Below, in pieces: positions 2,305 through 64,000 of a stretch of DNA of 64,000 bases. Made by a program: the position numbers and the translations under genes. The stretch comes from Zhihengliuella halotolerans (lineage in GTDB: Bacteria; Actinomycetota; Actinomycetes; Actinomycetales; Micrococcaceae), in assembly GCF_004217565.1 (NCBI RefSeq), contig NZ_SHLA01000001.1, forward strand, positions 372,001 to 436,000. Reading direction: 5' to 3'. The notes under the pieces are model-generated. The model did not search any database, was not told the DNA's origin, and saw nothing but the letters and a program-made list of their open reading frames with translations. Numbering within the stretch: position 1 is the first letter of the stretch; each line of letters begins with the position of its first letter.

Positions 2305-3609
2305 TTGTTTAGCGCCATTGCCCGGGTATTCCGGACGCCTGACTTGCGACGCAAGTTGTTGTTCACCCTAGGGATCATCGTCATCTATCGCATCGGTGTA
2401 TTCATTCCGACACCGGGCGTGGACTACGGAAATGTTCAGCAGTGCCTCGCCTTGGGCAATACCACGGGCGGCGTCTACGAGTTCGTCAACCTCTTCAGCG
2501 GTGGCGCGCTCCTCCAGGTCTCGATCTTCGCGATGGGCATCATGCCCTACATCACCGCGGCGATCATCGTGCAGCTGCTGCGCGTGGTGATCCCGCGCTT
2601 CGAGGAACTGCACAAAGAGGGATCCAGCGGCCAGGCGAAGCTGACTCAGTACACGCGCTACCTGACGATCGCGCTCGGCGTGCTCCAGGCCACGACACTG
2701 GTGTCGTTGGCCCGCAGCGGGATCCTGTTCCCGGGCTGCCAGCTTCCGATCGTCCCAGAGGACAGCATCCTCGTGATCCTGCTGATGATCCTCACGCTGA
2801 CCGCCGGCACCGTCTGCATCATGTGGATGGGCGAGATGGTCACGGAGAAGGGCATCGGCAACGGCATGTCCATGATGATCTTCGTGTCGATCGCCGCCGG
2901 CTTCCCGGCCTCCATGGGCAGCATCTTCCGCGCCCAGGGCGTGATGATCTTCCTCGCGGTGATTCTGATCGGCCTTGTGGTCATCGGGCTCGTGGTCTTC
3001 GTCGAGCAGTCTCAGCGCCGGGTCCCGGTCCAGTACGCCAAGCGCATGGTCGGCCGCCGCTCCGTCGGCGGGTCCTCGACCTACATCCCGATCAAGGTCA
3101 ACATGGCCGGCGTGATCCCCGTGATCTTCGCTTCCTCGATGCTCGCCCTGCCGGGCATGCTCGTTCAGTTCAACACGAACGACGACGGCACGCTCCCGGG
3201 ATGGGCTTCGTGGATCTCCACCTACATGACGCCGTCGAGCCCGCTGTACATGGCGATCTACGTGCTCATGGTCATCGGCTTCACGTACTTCTACGTTTCG
3301 ATCACGTTCAACCCGACCGAGGTCGCGGAGAACATGAAGAAGTACGGTGGCTTCATTCCTGGCATCCGCGCCGGCAAGCCGACCGCGGACTATCTGCAGT
3401 ACGTGCTCAGCCGCATCACGTTCCCGGGTTCCATCTACCTGGGACTGATCGCGCTCACTCCGCTGCTCGCGATCGTGCTGATCAATGCAGACCAGAACTT
3501 CCCCTTTGGCGGCATCTCGATCCTCATCATGGTCGGTGTCGGTCTTGAGACCGTCAAGCAAATCAATGCTCAGATGCAGCAGCGACACTACGAAGGACTT
3601 CTGCGATGA
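2305..3609 (+). CDS. secY: Preprotein translocase subunit SecY
   Basis: Central channel of the SecYEG protein-export complex in the cytoplasmic membrane. The 434 residues hold about ten hydrophobic membrane segments, with typical stretches MGIMPYITAAIIVQLL, TRYLTIALG, and in the C-terminal part NPTEVAENMKKYGGFIPG and RPG-like RAGKPTADYL. The start is TTG, six bases after AGGAGG; no ATG fits as well. The last bases overlap the adk ATG (ATGA), so the two genes are translationally coupled, as usual in this operon. Confidence 0.98.
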   Translation: MFSAIARVFRTPDLRRKLLFTLGIIVIYRIGVFIPTPGVDYGNVQQCLALGNTTGGVYEFVNLFSGGALLQVSIFAMGIMPYITAAIIVQLLRVVIPRFEELHKEGSSGQAKLTQYTRYLTIALGVLQATTLVSLARSGILFPGCQLPIVPEDSILVILLMILTLTAGTVCIMWMGEMVTEKGIGNGMSMMIFVSIAAGFPASMGSIFRAQGVMIFLAVILIGLVVIGLVVFVEQSQRRVPVQYAKRMVGRRSVGGSSTYIPIKVNMAGVIPVIFASSMLALPGMLVQFNTNDDGTLPGWASWISTYMTPSSPLYMAIYVLMVIGFTYFYVSITFNPTEVAENMKKYGGFIPGIRAGKPTADYLQYVLSRITFPGSIYLGLIALTPLLAIVLINADQNFPFGGISILIMVGVGLETVKQINAQMQQRHYEGLLR

Positions 3610-4178
3610 CTCGTCTCCTCATTGTCGGCCCTCCGGGCTCGGGCAAGGGCACCCAGGCCGAACGAATCTCCGCCAAGCTGGGAGTCGTCGCCATCTCGAC
3701 CGGCGACATCTTCCGCGCCAACGTCAAGGGCGGCACCCCACTCGGCCTCGAAGCCAAGAAGTACATCGACGCCGGTGATTTCGTTCCGGACTCGGTCACC
3801 AACAACATGGTGCGCGACCGCCTCGCCCAGGCCGACGTCGACAACGGTTTCCTGCTCGACGGCTACCCGCGCACATCGGCTCAGGTCGATGAGCTCGACT
3901 CCATCCTCGCGGACAACGACCAGCAACTCGACGCAGTGCTGATGCTCACCGTCGACGACGAGGAGCTGGTGACCCGGCTGCTCAAGCGCGCCGAGATCGA
4001 GGGCCGCGCCGACGACACCGAAGACGTGATCCGTCACCGTCTCGGGCTCTACCACGAGCAGACCGCGGTTGTTGTCGACCGCTACCGCGAGCGCGGCATC
4101 GTCCGCGAGGTCAACGGCCTCGGCGACATTGACGACGTCACCGCCCGCCTCCTCGAGGGTCTGGCCGAAAACGCCTAG
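3606..4178 (+). CDS. adk: Adenylate kinase
   Basis: Catalyses ATP + AMP to 2 ADP in the cytoplasm. The P-loop GPPGSGKGT is at residues 8-16 and the AMP-site DGYPRT at 85-90. At 190 residues this is the short form without the long zinc-type LID domain, usual in actinobacteria. The ATG overlaps the secY stop; a strong hairpin follows the stop. Confidence 0.97.
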   Translation: MTRLLIVGPPGSGKGTQAERISAKLGVVAISTGDIFRANVKGGTPLGLEAKKYIDAGDFVPDSVTNNMVRDRLAQADVDNGFLLDGYPRTSAQVDELDSILADNDQQLDAVLMLTVDDEELVTRLLKRAEIEGRADDTEDVIRHRLGLYHEQTAVVVDRYRERGIVREVNGLGDIDDVTARLLEGLAENA

Positions 4179-4192
4179 CCATTTCCGGAGCA

Positions 4193-4239
4193 CGACAACG
4201 GCAGCCCCCGCACCCGCGTGCGGGGGCTGCCGCCGTCGT
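4193..4239 (+). terminator. Strong hairpin after adk
   Basis: A perfect 14-bp GC-rich stem (4200-4213 with 4218-4231, loop CCGC) extended by an outer ACGAC/GTCGT pairing. No T-run follows. Two smaller GC-rich hairpins lie between it and map (around 4258-4275 and 4284-4300). Confidence 0.7.
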
Positions 4240-4322
4240 TCTCGGCGGAATCCGCACGCCGCCGCACGCGGCGGAACAACACCCCGGCGCGGCCGGGGAA
4301 TACTGAAGAAGGACGTCCAGCA

Positions 4323-5153
4323 ATGAGCTTCCGCTCGTCGAAGATCGAATACAAGTCGAACCCGCAGATCCTGAAGATGCGCGAGGCCGGGCTCGTCCTG
4401 GCCGAGGCGCTGGACACGACGGTCGCCGCGGCCGAGGTCGGGATGACGACGGCGGAGCTCGACGCGGTCTTCGAGTCCGTGATCACCAAACACGGCACCA
4501 CCAGCAACTTCAAGGGCTACCACGGCTTCCCGGCGACGATCTGCGCCTCGGTCAACGAGGAGGTCGTGCACGGCATCCCGGGCTCACGTGTGCTCGAAGA
4601 TGGCGACGTGCTCAAGATCGACGGCGGCTGCATCGTCGACGGCTGGCACGCCGACTCGGCCCGCACCGTGATCGTCGGCACCGCCGACCCGGCCGATCAG
4701 CGCCTCTCCGACATCACGGAGGAGGCCATGTGGGCCGGCATCGCCGCGCTCGCGAACGCCCGCTTCGTCGGCCAGATCGGCGAGGCCATCGACGACTTCG
4801 TCTCCGCCCAGGAGGGCGCCCCGCTCGGCATCCTCGAGGACTACGTCGGCCACGGCATCGGCTCCGAGATGCACATGCCGCCGGACGTGCTCAACTACCG
4901 CTCCGGTCACCGCGGCCCCCGAGTGAAAGCGGGCATGTGCCTGGCGATCGAGCCGATGCTCGTGCGCGGCGGGATCGAGACGGCTGTCCTCGAGGACGAC
5001 TGGACGATCGTCACGACCGACCGCTCCCGGGCCTCGCAGTGGGAGCACTCGGTCGCCGTCACCATGGGCGGCATCTGGGTGCTGACCGCGCACGACGGCG
5101 GGGCCGAGCGGCTCGCGAAGTACGGCGTCACGCCCTCGCCCGTCATCCCGTAG
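4323..5153 (+). CDS. map: Type I methionine aminopeptidase
   Basis: Removes the initiator methionine from nascent proteins. The 276-residue protein carries the metal-binding aspartates D100 and D111 in KIDGGCIVDGWHADSARTV, H83 in VVHGIPG, and the motifs GHGIGSEMHMPPDVLNY and GMCLAIEPM. The ATG at 4323 has GAAGGA upstream; a longer frame starting at 4218 runs through the hairpins and is unlikely. This is the last spc-operon gene here: instead of infA, an accessory block follows. Confidence 0.96.
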   Translation: MSFRSSKIEYKSNPQILKMREAGLVLAEALDTTVAAAEVGMTTAELDAVFESVITKHGTTSNFKGYHGFPATICASVNEEVVHGIPGSRVLEDGDVLKIDGGCIVDGWHADSARTVIVGTADPADQRLSDITEEAMWAGIAALANARFVGQIGEAIDDFVSAQEGAPLGILEDYVGHGIGSEMHMPPDVLNYRSGHRGPRVKAGMCLAIEPMLVRGGIETAVLEDDWTIVTTDRSRASQWEHSVAVTMGGIWVLTAHDGGAERLAKYGVTPSPVIP

Positions 5154-40301: not shown

Positions 40302-41177
40302 ATGAGGCAATATTTCCTAGGTCGCAGTGACGCGGCCGGCGAGGGGCACTTCGGCGTAGGTGCGCCACCGCGAGTGCGCATTCTGGTCGCGCTTGCTGAT
40401 GACGAGCTGCGAACCGCCCTACTGGACCTTGTCCAGGGCGAGAACTTTAGCAAGATTCAAGCGACGACCGGTCGGACTCTCGTGAACGTTGCGTCGAGAA
40501 CGCGTCCGTCATTGATCATCATGTCGAGCTCGTATCCGGACTTGCACGGTCAGAAGGCCATTCTGCGGCTACGACGGTTCACGAATGCGTACATCGTCGT
40601 CATTGACTTCTTCGCCGACGAGGACGGCCGGATTGCCCTGCTGCGGGCCGGGGCTGACCAGATCGTCGACGGACGCCTCGGCCACCATGAGCTGCGGGCG
40701 CGCGTGCGGTCGATGTTGCGGCGCCTGCGCTGGGTTCCGTCAGCGGTGGACGTTGTTGACGAAGAGGACGGGACCGCGACGACCGCTTCGGACCTTGACG
40801 ACGAAGGTGCCGACAGCGTCGCCGGGCCGCTCATTCTTGTCAGTGACGGTGTCGTCCTCGACGCGAGGAACCATCGCTGTTGGGTCAACGACGTCGAAGT
40901 GAGACTGAGTAATACGGAACATCGCCTGCTGTTGACCTTGATGTACGGGCATCCCGATGGCACCGGCAACCTGTTCACGCGGGGAGAGTTGTTGGCTGCC
41001 ACGTGCGGAGTGCGCACCGCCTCGGCGATGGATGACAAGGCGAACCGCAGCCTCGAAGTTCATATGGGAAACCTACGGAAAAAGCTTGGCGAGAACGTGA
41101 GGGATCCCAGGAGGATTCGTACTGTGCACGGTGTGGGTTATCACTGGATGAAGCCGGTCGAGTTGAAGAGGGATTGA
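40302..41177 (+). CDS. Atypical OmpR-type response regulator without phospho-acceptor Asp
   Basis: 291 residues: a receiver-like domain (about 25-140) and a C-terminal winged helix (about 185-285; VRLSNTEHRLLLTLMYGH, SLEVHMGNLRKKLGENV, IRTVHGVGYHWM), which binds DNA. The acidic pair D33-D34 is kept, but where the phosphorylated Asp should follow the third strand the sequence is LIIMSSSYPD (Ser75), and the conserved Lys is missing, so control by a kinase is unlikely. No histidine kinase gene is adjacent. Its place at the edge of the polysaccharide cluster suggests it regulates that cluster; inference only. Confidence 0.85.
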   Translation: MRQYFLGRSDAAGEGHFGVGAPPRVRILVALADDELRTALLDLVQGENFSKIQATTGRTLVNVASRTRPSLIIMSSSYPDLHGQKAILRLRRFTNAYIVVIDFFADEDGRIALLRAGADQIVDGRLGHHELRARVRSMLRRLRWVPSAVDVVDEEDGTATTASDLDDEGADSVAGPLILVSDGVVLDARNHRCWVNDVEVRLSNTEHRLLLTLMYGHPDGTGNLFTRGELLAATCGVRTASAMDDKANRSLEVHMGNLRKKLGENVRDPRRIRTVHGVGYHWMKPVELKRD

Positions 41178-56557: not shown

Positions 56558-59500
56558 TCAGATGGTCGCTGCGTGGTGCACCCGCTTGATCATCCGCGCC
56601 GTCTGGAAGTCGACGCTCATCCCCGTCGCTGCGTCCGCGTAGAACGCCGCGTCCGCGACCTCCCGTGCGCCCGTGAAGTAGCGGTACTTGAAGACCAGGA
56701 CCGCCCGGCCGAGCGCCAGGCCGAACGGGTCGCCCGTCGCGTCGCCCGGGATCGCGTAGCCGATCTCGGTCAGGTCCGTCCGGATCTCGTCTACCGCCGT
56801 CTGGTAGCCAGCCGGCTGCGGGCCCGCGGCCGAGACGACGAACCCGGCGTCGGCGTACACACCGCCATAGATCGTCGTCGGATCGGCCGGCAGGGCGTCA
56901 GCCTCGGTGGCCGGTGTCATCGCGACGCCGGCGGCTTCGAGCCGCGGCCAGTCGAAGGTCCGCCCCGGATCGAGCAGCTTGCGGCCGAGGTGGCCGTTGG
57001 GGTGGGTGCCGACGTCGCCGTGCCCGACGACGTTGCGCAGCGGAATCGCGGGGTACCGCGCCCGGATGGAGGTCAGCAGGTCGATCAGGGCCTCGTACTG
57101 CTCGTCCAGATAGGGGTCCGTCTGGTGGATGACCTCGATGCCGATCGAGTAGTCGTTGGCGCCGGCCGTGCCGCGCCAGCTCGACGCTCCCGCGTGCCAT
57201 GCCCGCGTCTCCTCGTCCGCCAGCTTGATCACGAGCCCCGGGTCCGTGGCCGTCGGACGGTCCCCGCGCGTGACCACGTAGTGCGGCGAGAGCCCGTTCG
57301 CGTTCACGAAGTGCGGGGGCAGGTCTGAGGTGCCGTTCGTGTGGTGCACCACGATGACGTCCGGCGTCGTGCCTGCCGGCCGGGAGTTCACGTTCGGCGA
57401 TTCGATCCACAGCGGCCGCAGCGTCGCGGTGATCGTGTTGCCCGACAGCGTGACATTGTCGTTGCCCGTGATCCGGAACGACCCGTCGTCGTCCCGCACG
57501 AGCGTCGCGCGCTCCTCGAGGAAGATCCGGCTGACGCCAGCGTTGGCGGCCGAGGGGAAGTTCGCCCAGTCGGTCGGCACCGGCTCCGTCGGCTCGGGCG
57601 TGATGACCAGGCCCCAGCGCCCCGAGCCGTCCGACTCCAGCAGCCCGAGCGATCCCGCGCCCGTGCCGGTCAGCGAAACGTCCCGCGAGAAGATCGCGTT
57701 GACCACGCTGGCCTCGGCCGAGAGGTCCGTGTCGTCCGGCTTGAAGCGGTTCCGCACCCGGATCTGCAGCGGAGTGGTGCTGCTCCCACTCGGCGCCACA
57801 GACGACGACGGGGCGTTCTGCGGGTGGTAGAGGACCCGCCAGTGCGTGTAGTGCGCCAGTTGGGCCAGCTGGCCGCCGTTGAACTGGGCGTTCAGGTCCG
57901 TGACCGAGAGCTGGGAGGCCAGCCCGGTGTTCACCGGGTTGAACACTGTGGGATCGCCGTCGAAGGTCGTGCCGGTGTCCCACGGGTCGAGGATGTCCAG
58001 CTGCGTGCCGTCCGCGGTCCCGTCGCCGCTGATGCCGCGGACGATGATCGCGTGCGACGGCGTCCCATCGATCGTCACGTACAGCGGCCCGTTCGCGACG
58101 AGCCACGCATGCCACTGCTCGGCGTCCGGGTACTGCTGGCCCGAGAGCGCGATGTCCCGCAGGCCGAGGTAGTCGGCCACGTCCTGCAGGCGGTCCCAGC
58201 CGTAGGACTGCTCGAGGCTGTAGCCCACCTCGTCCGCGAGCGCGGCGGCCGAGAGCACGACGCTGGCCTGCTCTGCCTGCGAACGCCGGTAGCTCTCCAG
58301 CATCGCCATCGACGCCGCCCAGCACGCGGTTTTGTTCGGCTGCGCCACGAGCGGGACGTCGTAGTACACGGGAGCGAACGACGACGTCGTGCCCGAGGGC
58401 CGCACCTCCAGCGTTTCGTTGGTCCCCGACGGGTCCACCCGCGTCGCCGAAACGGAGTGCCCGGCCTCCGCCGCGTCGATCGCGGCATTCGTCAGCGACG
58501 GGTCCTGACGTGTGGCCCGGCGCTGCTCGGCCGAGGCGCGGCTGCCGCCGTCGATCATCTGCCCGAGGTGGTCGCGCACGAGCTGCTGGTAGTCGTTCTC
58601 CGGCAGCGCACCGGCGTCGCGCGCCTGCTCGAGGGACTGCATGATGCCGCGGCTGTTCTCCGCGTTGGTCTCCTGCATCGCCATGCCCTTGGCCATCTCC
58701 GCGAAGGCGCGCGCGTTCTCCTGGTTGGAGAGATAGGTGCGGATCGCGTTCTCCTGGTTGCCGGCCAGGCCCGTGATGTCGCGGAAGGCCTCGGCGTTGG
58801 TGAGCGCGTCGCTGAGCCCGGCGAGCCCGGCACCCGGCGCCGGGGCGTCCCTCGGCGTCTGCATCGCGACGAGCGGCTGGGAGAACTGCGCCCAGATCGC
58901 CTTCCAGTCCGCGCGGGCCGGGGTCGGCGTGGACACCGGATTGATTGCCGTCGGCTCGTCCGTGCGGAACTCGTCCCAGTCCTGCGAGGAGTTCTCCTTG
59001 ACGTCCTCACACGAGTCGCAGACGCCCATGACCGCCTCCGAGTAGACGCCCCGCGTCGGCACGCTCAGGCGGTACGGCGGCAGCGGGGTCAGCGGCTGGT
59101 AACGCTTCATCAGGATCTCGGCGTAGTCGACCTCCTCCTGCTCCTCGCCCGTTCCCTCCGCCGCGACGGCGAGGCCGCGGTCCACGTGGAAGCCGTCGGC
59201 GACGGGGAAGACCATCGAGTTGCCGACGACCGTCAGGAGCTCGTTCTTGACCACCGAGGCGAGGCTGCGCTCGCCGTCGGAGGCGCCTTCCGGGGTGAAG
59301 GTCTCGATGTTGAACCCGTCGAGGAGCATGTGGCGGCGGCCCTCGTCGAGCTCGCGCCAGAGGACCCGGTTGTAGTACTCGATGTTGGAGTTGAGGTGCT
59401 CGATCAGCTCCTGCGCCAGGTAGTAATCCTCCTTGCGCGGGTTGCGCTTGTCGTTGGAGTTCAGCGGGATCGGGATCCGCACGCCGTCGAGCAGGTCGTC

Positions 59501-62500
59501 GCCGAGGGAGGCCCGGATGATCGGGCCGGAGAAGTGATCCGTCCGGTAGCTCAGGTCCAGGTGCTGGGCGGTCACCGTCACGAAGCTGTGCAGCGCGCGC
59601 AGGTCCGGGTCCGTGCAGACCATGCGCAGCTCGTCCGCGAGATCCGCGCGACTGCCGCCCGTTGCGCCGGTGCGCAGGCGGATCGTCATGTCCCGGCGCC
59701 CGCCGTGGTACTCGGCCGTCTTGGTGACGTCGAGGGCCGGCAGCCCGCTGCCGGAGAAGTCGCCCAGGAACCGCAGCGATTCCGTGAGCTTCGTGTAGAG
59801 CTGCGGCGCGATGTCCCGCTCGAAGATCTCGTCCCACTCCGCGATCAGGCGGTCCTGGAAGTACTCCTCGAGCAGGTCCTCTGCGGACGCCCGGCCGAGG
59901 ACCTCGGCGTAGGCCTCCCAGCGCTCGCGGTCGGTCTGGTTGCCGAAGAAGTCCAGCGGGTCGACGTCGGCCGGGGTGTCCGGCAGGCGCCACGGCCGGA
60001 AGTTCGTGACGCGGATCGACTGGGCGGGCGGGACCCGTTCGAAGTTGGCGTCCAGAGTCAGGAAGTGATCGGAGACGTCCAGGTGGGCCTCCACCTCCCG
60101 CTCCCGCGTCTCGAGGCCGAGCAGGTGGCCCGCCGGGCCGAGGAACATGCCGCCGATGAAGGCCTTGAACGCGTTGACGCCGCCCTCGCGCACGGTCTCG
60201 GTGATCAACGGCAGGGACTTGATCCGGTCCGCGCGGGTGCGCGGGCGCGGGAACTGGACGCGGAGCCGAGCGCTGCCGGTGACCGAGACGATCGCGTCGT
60301 CAGCGTATCGGCGGTCGGGGAAGTCCACCCGTCCGTAGTCGGTGCGACGGCGTTCGACGGCGTCGAACGCTCCGACTAGCGGGTGGCGGCGGCTCCCCAG
60401 CAGCCGGAAGACCGGGAGGTACGTGTTCGACGGCTTCGCCAGCAGGTTCGGCGCCAGCACGTCCTTCCACTTCGAGATGTTCCCCGGCGTGAACTCGGTC
60501 AGCTGCAGGGGGATGAACAGGCACTCCTGCACGCCCGTGAGCTCCTGGGAGATCGCGTAGTGCCGCAGGACCTCGAAGTACATCATGGTCATCGAGTGGC
60601 AGTGGTTGTGGTTCGCGACGACCTCGGTGGTGACGGCGTACTCCTGACCGTCCTTGACCGTCGTGACCACGGAGGCGTTGAGCCGCCGGTAGCTCTCCGC
60701 GTTCTGGGTCAGGGACTGCCGCAGCTTCTCGCCGAAGTGCTGGGCGATGTTGCGGGCGCCGGACTGGCTCGCCGAGGACTTGGAGTTCGAGTAGCCGCCG
60801 GCGACGCCGAGGGACCCGCCGATCGGCCCCATGGACCCGCCGAGCCCGAGGCCCGCGCTGATGCCGGCCGTGCTCGCGTTGCTGCGGCCGCTGATGTCCT
60901 CGTTGATCGACCCGCCGAGCTGATCCGTGATGAAGCGGTCGTCCATGAGGTCGGCGGCCAGCCGCTCACTCTGCTCGATCTCCTGGCTCTCGCTGGCCTC
61001 GAGGGAGTTGGCCATGTCGTAGGAGACGATCTGCTTCTTCTGCCCCGGAGCGAGCGGCAGCGAGTAGACGAGGTCGCCCAGCGAGTACCCGTCTGCTTTG
61101 AAGACCGAACGGTAGAACAGGACGTGCCCCGTGGCGACGGTCAGCGACTGGTAGAAGTTCAGCTCCGTGCCGGAGTCCGGGGAGTCCTGCCAGCGGATCG
61201 GGTTGGTGCGACCCACGGGGTGCCGCTCACGGATGGAGCTCGTGGGCTCGGCCGGCTCGCGGGGCCACAGCGGGTACACGAGCGGGCGGCCCCAGATGAA
61301 CCCCGGGAGGGCGGGGGCGCCGTCGTTCGCGTCCGTGACGAGCTCGTAGTGGTCGTCGGCGCGGAACCCGGACCCGGCGCGCTTGCGCAGCGCGTAGCGC
61401 TCGATCTCGGGGTCCGACGTCCGCACGATCGCGTTGTAGGTGAACTCGCGCAGGGCGCGGTTCGGGGTTGTGACGTTCACGCACCCGCCGCCCAGGTCTT
61501 GCGAGTACTCGCCCGAGGCGATCAGGTCGGCCTGATCGGGCAGGCGGCCGGGGGCGTGCGCGCAGCCGCCGCAGCCGGAACCGCCGCCGCAGCCGGCCCC
61601 GCCCTCGCAGCCGCAGTCCTTGTCGCCGGACTCGGCGGGCGTGAGCAGAATGTAGATGAAGTCGTCGGCCAGCGTCGCGTCCGGCCCGCCGTCGCCGATG
61701 ATCCGCAGATCGACGGGGGAGTCCGGGCCGACCGAGACCAGCGCCTGGGCCGCGGAGTACCGGCCGTGTGGGTAGGGCAGCGAGAAGAAGCCCTCGCCCG
61801 TGGTCTCCGCCGAGGCGATGATGCGCCATGGGGCGTCCTCCGCGCCGCCCTCGTCGCGGGCCTGCACGATCACCGTGAGCCCGGAGACCTGCTGCGCGGA
61901 ATTCACCGCGACGACCTTGCCGCGCAGCTTCCGGTCCGCGCTCGGCCGCGGTCCCGACGGCCCCGTGCCCGGACCGTCGGGCAGGCGCAGGTCGAGGGAG
62001 ATCTCCAGTTGCTGGAGGTCGGGATCGTCGACCTCGTAGCGTTCGCTCCACATGACGCGCCCGTCGAACCCCGTCACGCGTACCGCGACCGGACCCCGCG
62101 CGCTGGAGCGCAGGACCGGGTCTTTGCGCTGGAGCGTGAAGGGCGCGGGCAGGGCGACTGGATCCTCAAGGGAAGAGTAGGCGACGTCCAGGGAGACGGA
62201 GCGCTCCCCGCCGTCGAGACCCGTGACCGGGACGTCGGCCGTCACGCGGTGGAGGCCGAGCTCCGAACGGCTGATCGGGAGGCCGTCGGGATGCCGCAGG
62301 GCGAACGTGCCCGCGGCCGTGATGGGTGTCGAATCGGGGACTTCGACCGGGAACCTGGTCAGCAGGTCCCATTCACGCACGACGTCGCGGACGACGTCCA
62401 CGTTCAGCTTGCGGGCCTCGGCGTAGGAGGCGAGCTGATCGTCCGTGAGGTTCTCCGGGCGGTTGCTCGTGGAACTGAAGACGCCCAAGTCGCGGATGAT

Positions 62501-63133
62501 CGGCAGCAGATAGCCGTCGGAGGTGCCGGGGCTCGCGGGGTGCGACGCCGCGAATTCCCGGTAGGCCGGGGCGTTGATCAGGAATAGGCTCAGCGCCGCG
62601 GGGAGGTTCGCGCGCGCGGAGGCGTCGTGCATGAGGGTGTCGCGGCCCGCCGAATCGAGCTGCGGGTCGCCGACCTCCGGACGGATCAGGTGCGACGACG
62701 GCGAGCCGGGCCGGGCGATCTGGTCGAAGTAGAACAGGGCGTCCAGCCGGCCGCTTGCGAGGACGAGCCGGCTCGCGTCGGCCACCTGATAGGGAATCTC
62801 GAGCGTCAGGTCGTCCCAGGCGACGGAGGAGAGCCAGCGCGCCGCCAGGGCCCAGTCGTCGCCGAGGACCGACTCGGCGGGGACCTGCGCCCGGAACGGG
62901 CCGCTGCCCTCCACCTGGAGATCGGTGGGAGTGTTCCCGGCGGGCACGCGGTTGACGGGGAAGAACGGGTGGGGCGAGGAGGACGGATCCTTCTGGTCGC
63001 CGGCGGTCGAAACGAATTTGTGGCGCGGGATGGCCAGCCGCAACGTGAGGGGTGTGTCGGTGAGGGCGGAGTCGAGGTCGCCTGTCAGCGCCGCGGCCAG
63101 TGCTCCGATCGGAAACGAATGTTCTTCTGGCAT
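56558..63133 (-). CDS. Giant protein with papain-like protease and peptidoglycan amidase modules
   Basis: 2191 residues, no signal peptide or membrane anchor. In order: 1-400 unassigned, with beta-rich parts; about 400-495 a carboxypeptidase-regulatory-like beta domain; about 504-526 a Cys/Gly cluster (CGCEGGAGCGGGSGCGGC); 640-1350 an unassigned central module with a Gly-rich stretch at 745-800 and NHNHCHS near 839; CDSC near 1371; helical 1420-1560; about 1585-1760 a C70/C39-like cysteine protease (Cys1603 in NKTACWAASMAML, His about 1694 in SHAIIVRG, Asp about 1714 in LDPWD); about 1780-1910 beta-rich; 1924-2065 an Amidase_2 zinc amidase (VVHHTNG, GIEVIHQ, HGDVG, LLDPGRTFDW); a PG-binding-like tail. 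It probably digests cell wall and protein, but delivery and role are unknown. ATG 63133 with GGGGG upstream. Confidence 0.85.
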   Translation of the reverse strand: MPEEHSFPIGALAAALTGDLDSALTDTPLTLRLAIPRHKFVSTAGDQKDPSSSPHPFFPVNRVPAGNTPTDLQVEGSGPFRAQVPAESVLGDDWALAARWLSSVAWDDLTLEIPYQVADASRLVLASGRLDALFYFDQIARPGSPSSHLIRPEVGDPQLDSAGRDTLMHDASARANLPAALSLFLINAPAYREFAASHPASPGTSDGYLLPIIRDLGVFSSTSNRPENLTDDQLASYAEARKLNVDVVRDVVREWDLLTRFPVEVPDSTPITAAGTFALRHPDGLPISRSELGLHRVTADVPVTGLDGGERSVSLDVAYSSLEDPVALPAPFTLQRKDPVLRSSARGPVAVRVTGFDGRVMWSERYEVDDPDLQQLEISLDLRLPDGPGTGPSGPRPSADRKLRGKVVAVNSAQQVSGLTVIVQARDEGGAEDAPWRIIASAETTGEGFFSLPYPHGRYSAAQALVSVGPDSPVDLRIIGDGGPDATLADDFIYILLTPAESGDKDCGCEGGAGCGGGSGCGGCAHAPGRLPDQADLIASGEYSQDLGGGCVNVTTPNRALREFTYNAIVRTSDPEIERYALRKRAGSGFRADDHYELVTDANDGAPALPGFIWGRPLVYPLWPREPAEPTSSIRERHPVGRTNPIRWQDSPDSGTELNFYQSLTVATGHVLFYRSVFKADGYSLGDLVYSLPLAPGQKKQIVSYDMANSLEASESQEIEQSERLAADLMDDRFITDQLGGSINEDISGRSNASTAGISAGLGLGGSMGPIGGSLGVAGGYSNSKSSASQSGARNIAQHFGEKLRQSLTQNAESYRRLNASVVTTVKDGQEYAVTTEVVANHNHCHSMTMMYFEVLRHYAISQELTGVQECLFIPLQLTEFTPGNISKWKDVLAPNLLAKPSNTYLPVFRLLGSRRHPLVGAFDAVERRRTDYGRVDFPDRRYADDAIVSVTGSARLRVQFPRPRTRADRIKSLPLITETVREGGVNAFKAFIGGMFLGPAGHLLGLETREREVEAHLDVSDHFLTLDANFERVPPAQSIRVTNFRPWRLPDTPADVDPLDFFGNQTDRERWEAYAEVLGRASAEDLLEEYFQDRLIAEWDEIFERDIAPQLYTKLTESLRFLGDFSGSGLPALDVTKTAEYHGGRRDMTIRLRTGATGGSRADLADELRMVCTDPDLRALHSFVTVTAQHLDLSYRTDHFSGPIIRASLGDDLLDGVRIPIPLNSNDKRNPRKEDYYLAQELIEHLNSNIEYYNRVLWRELDEGRRHMLLDGFNIETFTPEGASDGERSLASVVKNELLTVVGNSMVFPVADGFHVDRGLAVAAEGTGEEQEEVDYAEILMKRYQPLTPLPPYRLSVPTRGVYSEAVMGVCDSCEDVKENSSQDWDEFRTDEPTAINPVSTPTPARADWKAIWAQFSQPLVAMQTPRDAPAPGAGLAGLSDALTNAEAFRDITGLAGNQENAIRTYLSNQENARAFAEMAKGMAMQETNAENSRGIMQSLEQARDAGALPENDYQQLVRDHLGQMIDGGSRASAEQRRATRQDPSLTNAAIDAAEAGHSVSATRVDPSGTNETLEVRPSGTTSSFAPVYYDVPLVAQPNKTACWAASMAMLESYRRSQAEQASVVLSAAALADEVGYSLEQSYGWDRLQDVADYLGLRDIALSGQQYPDAEQWHAWLVANGPLYVTIDGTPSHAIIVRGISGDGTADGTQLDILDPWDTGTTFDGDPTVFNPVNTGLASQLSVTDLNAQFNGGQLAQLAHYTHWRVLYHPQNAPSSSVAPSGSSTTPLQIRVRNRFKPDDTDLSAEASVVNAIFSRDVSLTGTGAGSLGLLESDGSGRWGLVITPEPTEPVPTDWANFPSAANAGVSRIFLEERATLVRDDDGSFRITGNDNVTLSGNTITATLRPLWIESPNVNSRPAGTTPDVIVVHHTNGTSDLPPHFVNANGLSPHYVVTRGDRPTATDPGLVIKLADEETRAWHAGASSWRGTAGANDYSIGIEVIHQTDPYLDEQYEALIDLLTSIRARYPAIPLRNVVGHGDVGTHPNGHLGRKLLDPGRTFDWPRLEAAGVAMTPATEADALPADPTTIYGGVYADAGFVVSAAGPQPAGYQTAVDEIRTDLTEIGYAIPGDATGDPFGLALGRAVLVFKYRYFTGAREVADAAFYADAATGMSVDFQTARMIKRVHHAATI

Positions 63134-63161
63134 TGCCGGCCCCCTGAGTCAAAAGTTGAGC

Positions 63162-63220
63162 AGTATACAGCAACTTCAGCGCACTCTTTTGAGTTTTCTC
63201 AAGATTCTGCAAACTGTCAA
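63162..63220 (-). promoter_or_regulatory. AT-rich promoter region of the giant gene
   Basis: On the minus strand TTGACA (63220-63215), an inverted repeat TTGAG-TTTT-CTCAA (63202-63189) and TATACT (63167-63162) lie within 60 bases. TATACT is a good -10 by itself, but it is too far from TTGACA to form one promoter, so the exact pair is unsure. Confidence 0.35.
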
Positions 63221-63378
63221 TCGAAAGCGATGACTCAGATGGGGGTGCTTAGAGGGCGCGGTTCGAAGAACTCTCTGGTTACCTTCGCGTATCACGCGTG
63301 TTTGCTGGCCGCAGGCCGGGTCTGGAACGAGGACTGACGGCGCGTTCCCTGGCGCGGGCCGTGCGATCTCGCCGCGTT

Positions 63379-64000
63379 TTAGAGGCAGACCTTGATGCCG
63401 AGCAGGTCGATAATGCAGTCCCGCTCCGGCGTCTGCGTAGGCGATGGTTTGGGAGTCGGTGTGCGCGTCGGCGTTGGCGAGGGTTTGGGCGCAGGCTTGT
63501 AGGTCGGCGTCGGTGTGGGCGACGGCTTCGGGGCCGGCTTGAAGGTGGGCGTCGGCGAGGGCGCGGGCTTGTACGTCTTCGTCGGGGAGGGCGACGGCTT
63601 GGGGGCCGGCTTGTAGGTCGGTGCCGAGGAGGTCTTCGGCGTCGGCCGTGGCGCGACCGGCGGGGCGGCAGGGCGGGACGACGGCACCTGCTGCTGGTCC
63701 GGTCGCGGATTCGGCGCGATGCCGGGACGCTCGGAAGGGGCGACCACAGAGGGCCCGGGCCTTCCGCCGTCGGGCCTGGCACCCTGGCTGGGCCGGTCGG
63801 AAGACCGACCCGGCGCATTGTCGCGGTTCCCGGTGGCCTCGACGTGACGCTCCGCATCGGGGGAGTCTGCGGCAGACTCGTCGTCCCGATGGGCACTGTC
63901 AGAATCGGTCGGCGCGTGGTCGGAGTCCTCCGTGCCGGGGTCGTCTGCGTCTTGCCGCTCGGGTGAGGCCGTCTGGCCGGCGTCTCCACCCGCGCGCGGC
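63379..64000 (-). CDS. Proline-rich repeat protein, C-terminal part (5' end outside window)
   Basis: The frame is open to the right edge of the window, well above the first internal GTG at 63747. The upstream part visible here is acidic and Asp/Pro-rich; residues encoded by about 63430-63690 are repeated TYKPAPKPSPTPT units; the protein ends ERDCIIDLLGIKVCL, a short hydrophobic tail with two cysteines. Pro/Thr/Lys repeats of this kind usually span the cell wall or act as flexible linkers, so a surface location is likely. I do not recognise the family. A long frame on the other strand and in other frames is a shadow of the biased codons. Confidence 0.75.
   Translation of the reverse strand, partial: PRAGGDAGQTASPERQDADDPGTEDSDHAPTDSDSAHRDDESAADSPDAERHVEATGNRDNAPGRSSDRPSQGARPDGGRPGPSVVAPSERPGIAPNPRPDQQQVPSSRPAAPPVAPRPTPKTSSAPTYKPAPKPSPSPTKTYKPAPSPTPTFKPAPKPSPTPTPTYKPAPKPSPTPTRTPTPKPSPTQTPERDCIIDLLGIKVCL
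63440..63625. repeat. About 30-42-bp imperfect tandem repeats coding KPAPKPSPTPT
   Basis: Near-copies of ggcttgtaggtcggcgtcgg and ggcgacggcttcggggccgg recur four to five times; they encode the proline-rich units of the C-terminal protein. Confidence 0.65.

Follow-up and report, generated by a model that had tools for sequence, protein, structure and literature searches.

Polymorphic toxin systems (Rhs, CDI, MafB, TANFOR) are built from large multidomain proteins in which a constant body carries exchangeable C-terminal enzymes, a papain-like peptidase stands ahead of the last domain and tandem copies occur with different ends (Zhang et al., 2012, PMC3482391; PMC7073777), and papain-like releasing peptidases within toxin polypeptides are an established theme (PMC3482391). 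We noticed the same organization in a giant protein of Zhihengliuella halotolerans, whose genome (NCBI RefSeq assembly GCF_004217565.1) is one 3.58-Mb contig (NZ_SHLA01000001.1); bases 372001-436000 of this contig, a stretch of 64,000 nucleotides, constitute the window analysed here. We hypothesize, with a probability of about 0.6, that the giant belongs to a family of giant polymorphic effectors that is widespread but uncharacterised, and that its Peptidase_C70 domain would release its wall amidase. It differs from the described systems in that known trafficking domains do not match its body, the search for an immunity gene found none, it has no apparent signal peptide and the payloads of its family are biased to peptidoglycan hydrolases.

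A preliminary description of this DNA, made from the letters alone, had reported one uninterrupted frame of 2191 residues, which is indeed present, on the minus strand. The GC content by codon position is 0.68/0.49/0.94, and Zhihengliuella salsuginis (genome G001; loci L004/L025) has an uninterrupted ortholog of 2193 amino acids, 83% identical to the giant. Over aligned codons, dN/dS between the two is 0.22 (0.29 in the C70 part and 0.15 in the amidase), with 632 changes at third codon positions versus 245 at first and 180 at second ones. Because of the codon-position GC, the intact same-genus ortholog and the dN/dS, a chance frame or fusion artefact is excluded and, by these codon comparisons, the giant is a real gene under purifying selection, every segment included. 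Long antisense frames do occur in this GC-rich region; nevertheless, the intact gene in a second species, the dN/dS and the presence of the same architecture in many genomes refute the idea of an antisense artefact or of two or three unrelated genes joined by a sequencing error, the latter also raised in the preliminary description, and make it next to impossible.

The relatives of the giant keep the body and change the end. Mean identity of 25 close relatives to the giant is 33-59% over residues 400-1500 and 37-39% over the junction (1500-1580); beyond it, the identity drops to 14-27%. In Segetibacter sp. 3557_3 (L042), two tandem giants share ~4.8 kb of identical DNA, which begins ~45 bp ahead of the reading frame and reaches residue ~1580; past this point they are unrelated, one ending in C70 and an unassigned domain and the other in DUF2272 (the assembly is a draft, so that perfect identity could partly reflect repeat collapse, the two ends still being distinct sequences). 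In other pairs (L034/L052, L040/L049, L037/L041), C70 is kept at 67-81% (the first two pairs being 69-81% identical up to the end of C70) and divergence starts only after ~1780. Since the tandem giants part at ~1580 and the other pairs only after ~1780, these alignments show exchange of the C-terminal end at two points, before and after C70, and also that a change of the last domain often leaves C70 in place behind the body. According to Pfam, C70 is present in 12 of 20 close tails, followed by Amidase_2, DUF2272, Beta-lactamase2 or nothing recognised, and 42 distant tails contain C70 (10), C39_2 (4), Amidase_2 (3), PETase-like (3), M23 (2) and, once each, GH25, Tae4, M15_4, OmpA, Muramidase and Amidase_6. 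Tae4 is a family of type VI secretion system amidase effectors with established antibacterial activity. By their domain assignments, the majority of the last domains that can be recognised have peptidoglycan as their substrate or ligand. By eye, HExxH-like motifs in some tails and a nuclease-like pattern in L043 were seen as leads.

The C70 domain of the giant is recognised by Pfam (PF12385; E-value 4e-15, 56.3 bits versus a cut-off of 19), with the catalytic residues Cys1604, His1694 and Asp1716 and the oxyanion residue Gln1598; the catalytic cysteine and histidine are invariant in 23 aligned sequences. The preliminary description had the histidine right and had placed the cysteine at 1603 and the aspartate at about 1714. 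It had also proposed structure prediction as a check of the proximity of these three residues, and the C70 region does model as a papain-like fold, being the only part of the predicted model of residues 1541-2191 with confident scores. This model aligns with papain-like structures, the tied top rows including the ComA peptidase domain (3k8u; Z 12.5, root-mean-square deviation (rmsd) 2.8, 133 aligned residues) and the C70 protease AvrRpt2 (6hqz; Z 12.4, rmsd 2.9, 133 aligned residues). The giant's domain resembles AvrRpt2-like C70 and C39 (ComA) peptidases in the Gln/Cys/His/Asp residues and in the predicted papain-like fold; however, it is embedded in a scaffold ahead of a wall hydrolase, and is neither a stand-alone injected effector nor a domain of an ABC transporter.

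The amidase is likewise matched by Pfam (Amidase_2; E-value 2e-20, 73.7 bits versus a cut-off of 26), and its active-site positions align with AmpDh2 (E-value 4e-18). Alignment to AmpDh2/AmpD places the zinc ligands at His1930, His2038 and Asp2055, the last one just past the profile match, as well as the positions Glu2000 and Lys2052, in agreement with the two histidines and one aspartate of the preliminary description. As the predicted model of amidase and tail is unusable (predicted local distance difference test score (pLDDT) <50; the alignment was too shallow), the amidase fold rests on sequence. Catalytic and zinc-ligand positions align with those of AmpD, AmpDh2 and AmiD, whereas the giant's amidase is the C-terminal part of a 2191-residue protein and has one extra residue between Lys2052 and Asp2055 and six extra residues before them. 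The tail behind it had been called similar to peptidoglycan-binding domains, a proposal that finds a weak collinear match in AmpDh3 and nothing in Pfam. In another family of the same order, an 853-residue frame (L006:709-3270) carries the same two domains reversed, amidase then C70.

The body, of more than 1100 residues, is unrecognised by Pfam, NCBIfam, PHROG and PADLOC models, and its AlphaFold model (residues 361-1560) has a mean pLDDT of 65. It starts with the transthyretin-like domain (residues ~399-501; Foldseek probability 1.00, TMt about 0.5; VIA Z 7.8, rmsd 2.9, 89 aligned residues), for which the ortholog gives a weak CarboxypepD_reg match. Invariant scaffold residues in 50 aligned sequences include Asn841, Asn843, Cys845, His846, Cys1372, Cys1375 and Glu1376, which could form a candidate metal site according to this conservation. 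Residues 667-875, with four long predicted strands, rank with the best-conserved stretches of the scaffold in the alignment, and the region 745-800 between the strands averages 62% Gly/Ala/Ser/Thr and 8% charged residues in the 50 sequences; the insert of residues 745-797 may be a candidate membrane-inserting hairpin. For the long-strand module, the first Foldseek rows include weak ones for CytK, gamma-hemolysin, NetF and aerolysin (E-values 3e-3 to 2e-2, probabilities 0.08-0.25, TMt about 0.1), at most a hint of resemblance to beta-barrel pore toxins; pore toxins were absent from the VIA list, where transthyretins took up all places. The N-terminal region (residues 1-400) evolves fast, with 66% identity to the same-genus ortholog (dN/dS 0.38) and 16-21% to the close group, and is a possible targeting part, as judged from this divergence. 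Several distant relatives start with a helix-hairpin-helix motif (HHH_3, E-value 2e-18 in L074). When the model of residues 361-1560 was compared with BFVD, the Yasminevirus protein A0A5K0U6Q4 (642 residues) was the only viral match under an E-value of 0.001 (1e-4, probability 0.89, poor TM), and on this structural match a giant virus may encode a relative of the body.

We propose that the constant body (residues ~400-1580) would carry an exchangeable payload, here the C70 protease followed by an AmpD-family N-acetylmuramoyl-L-alanine amidase. C70 would cut in cis and free the last domain, and the freed amidase would then lyse either another cell or the producer itself by cutting its wall. The fast-evolving N-terminus is a putative targeting part, and the Gly/Ser-rich insert flanked by the long strands may enter membranes. 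Colicins have no signal peptide and are released by lysis, and a colicin-like release by lysis would be the simplest guess for how the giant leaves the cell in Z. halotolerans, whose genome has no sign of a contractile injection system among the marker families searched. The giant is similar to the ColM family and other lysis-released wall-targeting bacteriocins (PMC5821083) in having no apparent signal peptide and a wall-targeting catalytic end, and differs from them in its much larger size, its different body and the lack of an adjoining lysis or immunity gene.

A constant N-terminal and central part with exchanged C-terminal domains was found, and C70, with its catalytic residues intact, sits where polymorphic toxins have the releasing peptidase (the cleavage is predicted from sequence). 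The giant works like a polymorphic toxin, yet we do not file it as a member of that class, because two of the defining features of the class, an export domain of a known type and an immunity gene next to the toxin gene, were sought and not found. The preliminary description had suggested three roles, of which a lytic effector is the best one: homologues do keep the body and swap the end, mostly for peptidoglycan hydrolases, while contact, release and toxicity are what we infer. The other two, a contact-dependent toxin and a wall factor set free by lysis, are conceivable alternatives. Several observations weigh against such an effector. No N-terminal domain of known export (WXG/LXG, PAAR, signal peptide, DUF4157) was found, with no Pfam match in residues 1-491 of the giant; the absence of a signal peptide, in the giant as in its relatives, agrees with the preliminary description and is by eye (no predictor was run), and the N-terminus of a close relative gave no Pfam match above the cut-off. 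No immunity gene was found directly downstream of the giant, an unrecognised one elsewhere being possible, and the neighbourhood search retrieved no conserved neighbour in close relatives. Many tails (e.g., L026, L029, L037 and L040) have no assigned domain past C70, and several of the distant relatives consist of the scaffold with a short tail or none, which means that the body must have a function of its own.

The body itself could be the delivery vehicle, binding the target cell through its fast-evolving N-terminus, inserting into a membrane its Gly/Ser-rich hairpin, held by the long beta strands, and presenting or passing the autoprotease-released wall hydrolase with no secretion machine, which we consider unlikely. 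Delivery by another machine, also suggested in the preliminary description, finds no support in the genomic context: there are no conserved neighbours, and the contractile injection markers Phage_sheath and Pvc16_N are both absent from the five Zhihengliuella genomes. The giant might still be the cargo of a contractile injection system, or of other dedicated machinery, encoded elsewhere in the genome, since Pvc16_N, the marker of extracellular contractile injection systems, is present in 19 (10/21 and 9/30) of 51 genomes from other genera that carry a giant, the comparison figure being 17 among 150 genomes sampled from a single order, to which a Chitinophaga genome belongs. This enrichment is, however, confounded by taxon and genome size, Pvc16_N is absent from 32 of the 51 as well as from the source genome and genus, and the giants are not adjacent to contractile-system loci; such a system as universal vehicle was rejected for the Z. 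halotolerans genome. WXG100 genes of the type VII secretion system exist in all five Zhihengliuella genomes, with or without the giant, and Pfam finds no WXG/LXG domain at the giant's N-terminus. Altogether, we regard the cargo explanation as improbable.

AmpD-family amidases also have a role in wall recycling, and the giant could be a cytosolic store of wall hydrolase for the producer's own wall at lysis or differentiation, an autolysin or recycling enzyme and no weapon. This rather unlikely explanation would be consistent with the lack of an immunity gene and with the sigma-factor-like genes upstream, but the sporadic distribution, the cross-phylum spread and the payload exchange fit conflict better than housekeeping. 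Defence systems likewise combine a constant sensor with a variable effector, so an anti-phage or stress suicide module can be imagined, whose body would sense infection, whose Gly/Ser-rich insert would open the membrane and whose hydrolase would lyse the cell. The conserved uncharged insert and the cytosolic location suggested by the missing signal peptide agree with it, whereas the giant matches no PADLOC 2.0.0 model and has no recognisable defence genes beside it, making this explanation highly improbable.

As the preliminary description had suspected, the central module does recur among large uncharacterised proteins: protein searches and a genome scan retrieved its relatives. Searches of plasmid and phage records matched residues ~540-1530 to large proteins, with different ends, from Caballeronia, Psychrobacter, Ruegeria, Novosphingobium, Polaromonas and Streptomyces. 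An initial alignment, of 11 diverse homologues, lacked any stretch of sufficient conservation for scanning genomes; a closer subset was used instead, and one scan of 84,980 species genomes yielded 195 relatives, from which 79 loci were kept. Approximately 29 of these form a close group of roughly 1600-2220 residues, with ~50% identity over 851 residues; its members come from Bacteroidota, Pseudomonadota, Myxococcota and Paenibacillus. A further ~50 loci are more distant relatives of the body. In the tree, 28 close-group members lie on one side of a branch with 100% support and a length of 1.37. Since this close clade spans four phyla plus Zhihengliuella as sole actinobacterium, the phylogenetic pattern suggests horizontal transfer. 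The giant is present in 3 of 396 actinobacterial genomes (the source genome included), in 4 of 150 genomes from the order of a Chitinophaga genome and, intact, in two of the five Zhihengliuella genomes, with a remnant in a third. Viral contigs scanned with two alignments gave no relatives, and the fecal "phage" contig MT835996 is therefore probably bacterial; a phage origin of the giant was rejected, as PHROGs match its amidase only. Giants in two frames (L067, L090 and L033, from Comamonas, Hyphomicrobiales and Thioploca) are probably decayed or frameshifted copies. Literature searches, with subscription papers mostly outside their reach, retrieved no description of this architecture.

Table. 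Features of the giant gene and of its upstream region, in coordinates of the window.
Feature	Residues	Coordinates	Strand	Remarks
Giant gene	2191 aa	56558..63133	-	ATG at 63133, stop ends 56558
N-terminal region	1-400	61934..63133	-	no known domain
Constant scaffold	~399-1540	58514..61939	-	recurring in many phyla
Transthyretin-like (carboxypeptidase-regulatory-like) beta domain	~399-501	61631..61939	-	
CxC motif	Cys507/Cys509	61607..61615	-	kept in 92% of 50 aligned sequences
Four predicted beta strands of 20-28 residues (667-694, 699-718, 821-840, 848-875)	667-875	60509..61135	-	AlphaFold model
Conserved insert between long strands	745-797	60743..60901	-	pLDDT <50
Junction element (PSLTxAAxxAxxxGxxVxAxxTDxxGxxES)	1541-1580	58394..58513	-	last common piece before the exchangeable end
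Peptidase_C70, papain-like domain	1591-1720	57974..58363	-	Gln1598, Cys1604, His1694, Asp1716
Linker from C70 to amidase	1730-1905	57419..57946	-	no Pfam match
Amidase_2 (AmpD/AmpDh2-like)	1922-2041	57011..57370	-	limits by profile
Candidate peptidoglycan-binding tail, as in AmpDh3	C-terminal ~117	56561..56911	-	weak collinear match to AmpDh3 C-terminal domain
Upstream region, 245 bp		63134..63378	-	inverted repeats TTGAGAAAACTCAA and AAGTTG-N12-CAACTT
P0002, 3' part	535 aa in all	63379..63999	-	extends beyond the window; sigma-factor-like, weak zf-HC2, hydrophobic segment, Pro-rich tail

The ATG of the giant is preceded by a ribosome-binding-like GGGGG, and the CTTGAGAAAA core is also found upstream of the Z. 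salsuginis ortholog. P0003, a paralogue of P0002, lies just upstream of it, on the same strand as the giant. These two adjacent genes (L001:1380-2987 and 3048-4820; genome 435379-438819) appear to encode membrane-tethered sigma factors, in which an N-terminus like that of sigma-70 is joined to an anti-sigma-type zinc finger, a hydrophobic segment and a long Pro-rich tail. P0003 was rejected as a giant-specific regulator because Zhihengliuella genomes without the giant have orthologs; in two of them (G003 and G004) the alanine racemase locus is near the P0003 sigma-like gene, with no giant between. In Z. salsuginis, the intact giant is followed by a second sigma-like gene and by the end of a second giant, of which scrambled pieces remain (residues 1701-1730, 2133-2191 and 1837-1919). 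In a third Zhihengliuella (G002; L020, L116), flanking contigs end near the giant region, leaving a C-terminal piece of 229 residues, and repeated copies may have broken the assembly there.

The gene past the 3' end of the giant is convergent and metallophosphoesterase-like. At some distant loci, tandem giants have a gene of ~100 residues between them, the sole outcome of the conserved-neighbour search; such pairs, separated by this unrecognised gene, were seen at L068, L079, L080, L083, L084, L095 and L100, and at least in L084 the second giant ends in a C70-like domain only. A gene family of ~365 residues lies directly 3' of the giant at L059, L060 and L087. Elsewhere in the window, the GC content drops to 53-55% between positions 41000 and 48000, compared with ~68% in the rest, and this stretch, which holds an O-antigen-ligase-like (Wzy_C) gene beside glycosyltransferases, epimerases and a nucleotidyltransferase, is probably an acquired polysaccharide cluster.

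A body of more than 1100 residues, ~50% identical between phyla and with interchangeable ends that mostly cut cell walls, poses the question of the route by which a protein of ~2200 residues with no signal peptide would reach the walls of other cells. If the giant is a weapon, it would stand for a large, so far unrecorded group of antibacterial effectors, from which new peptidoglycan hydrolases could be drawn; if the body is itself the delivery vehicle, it would be a new class of single-polypeptide antibacterial delivery system.

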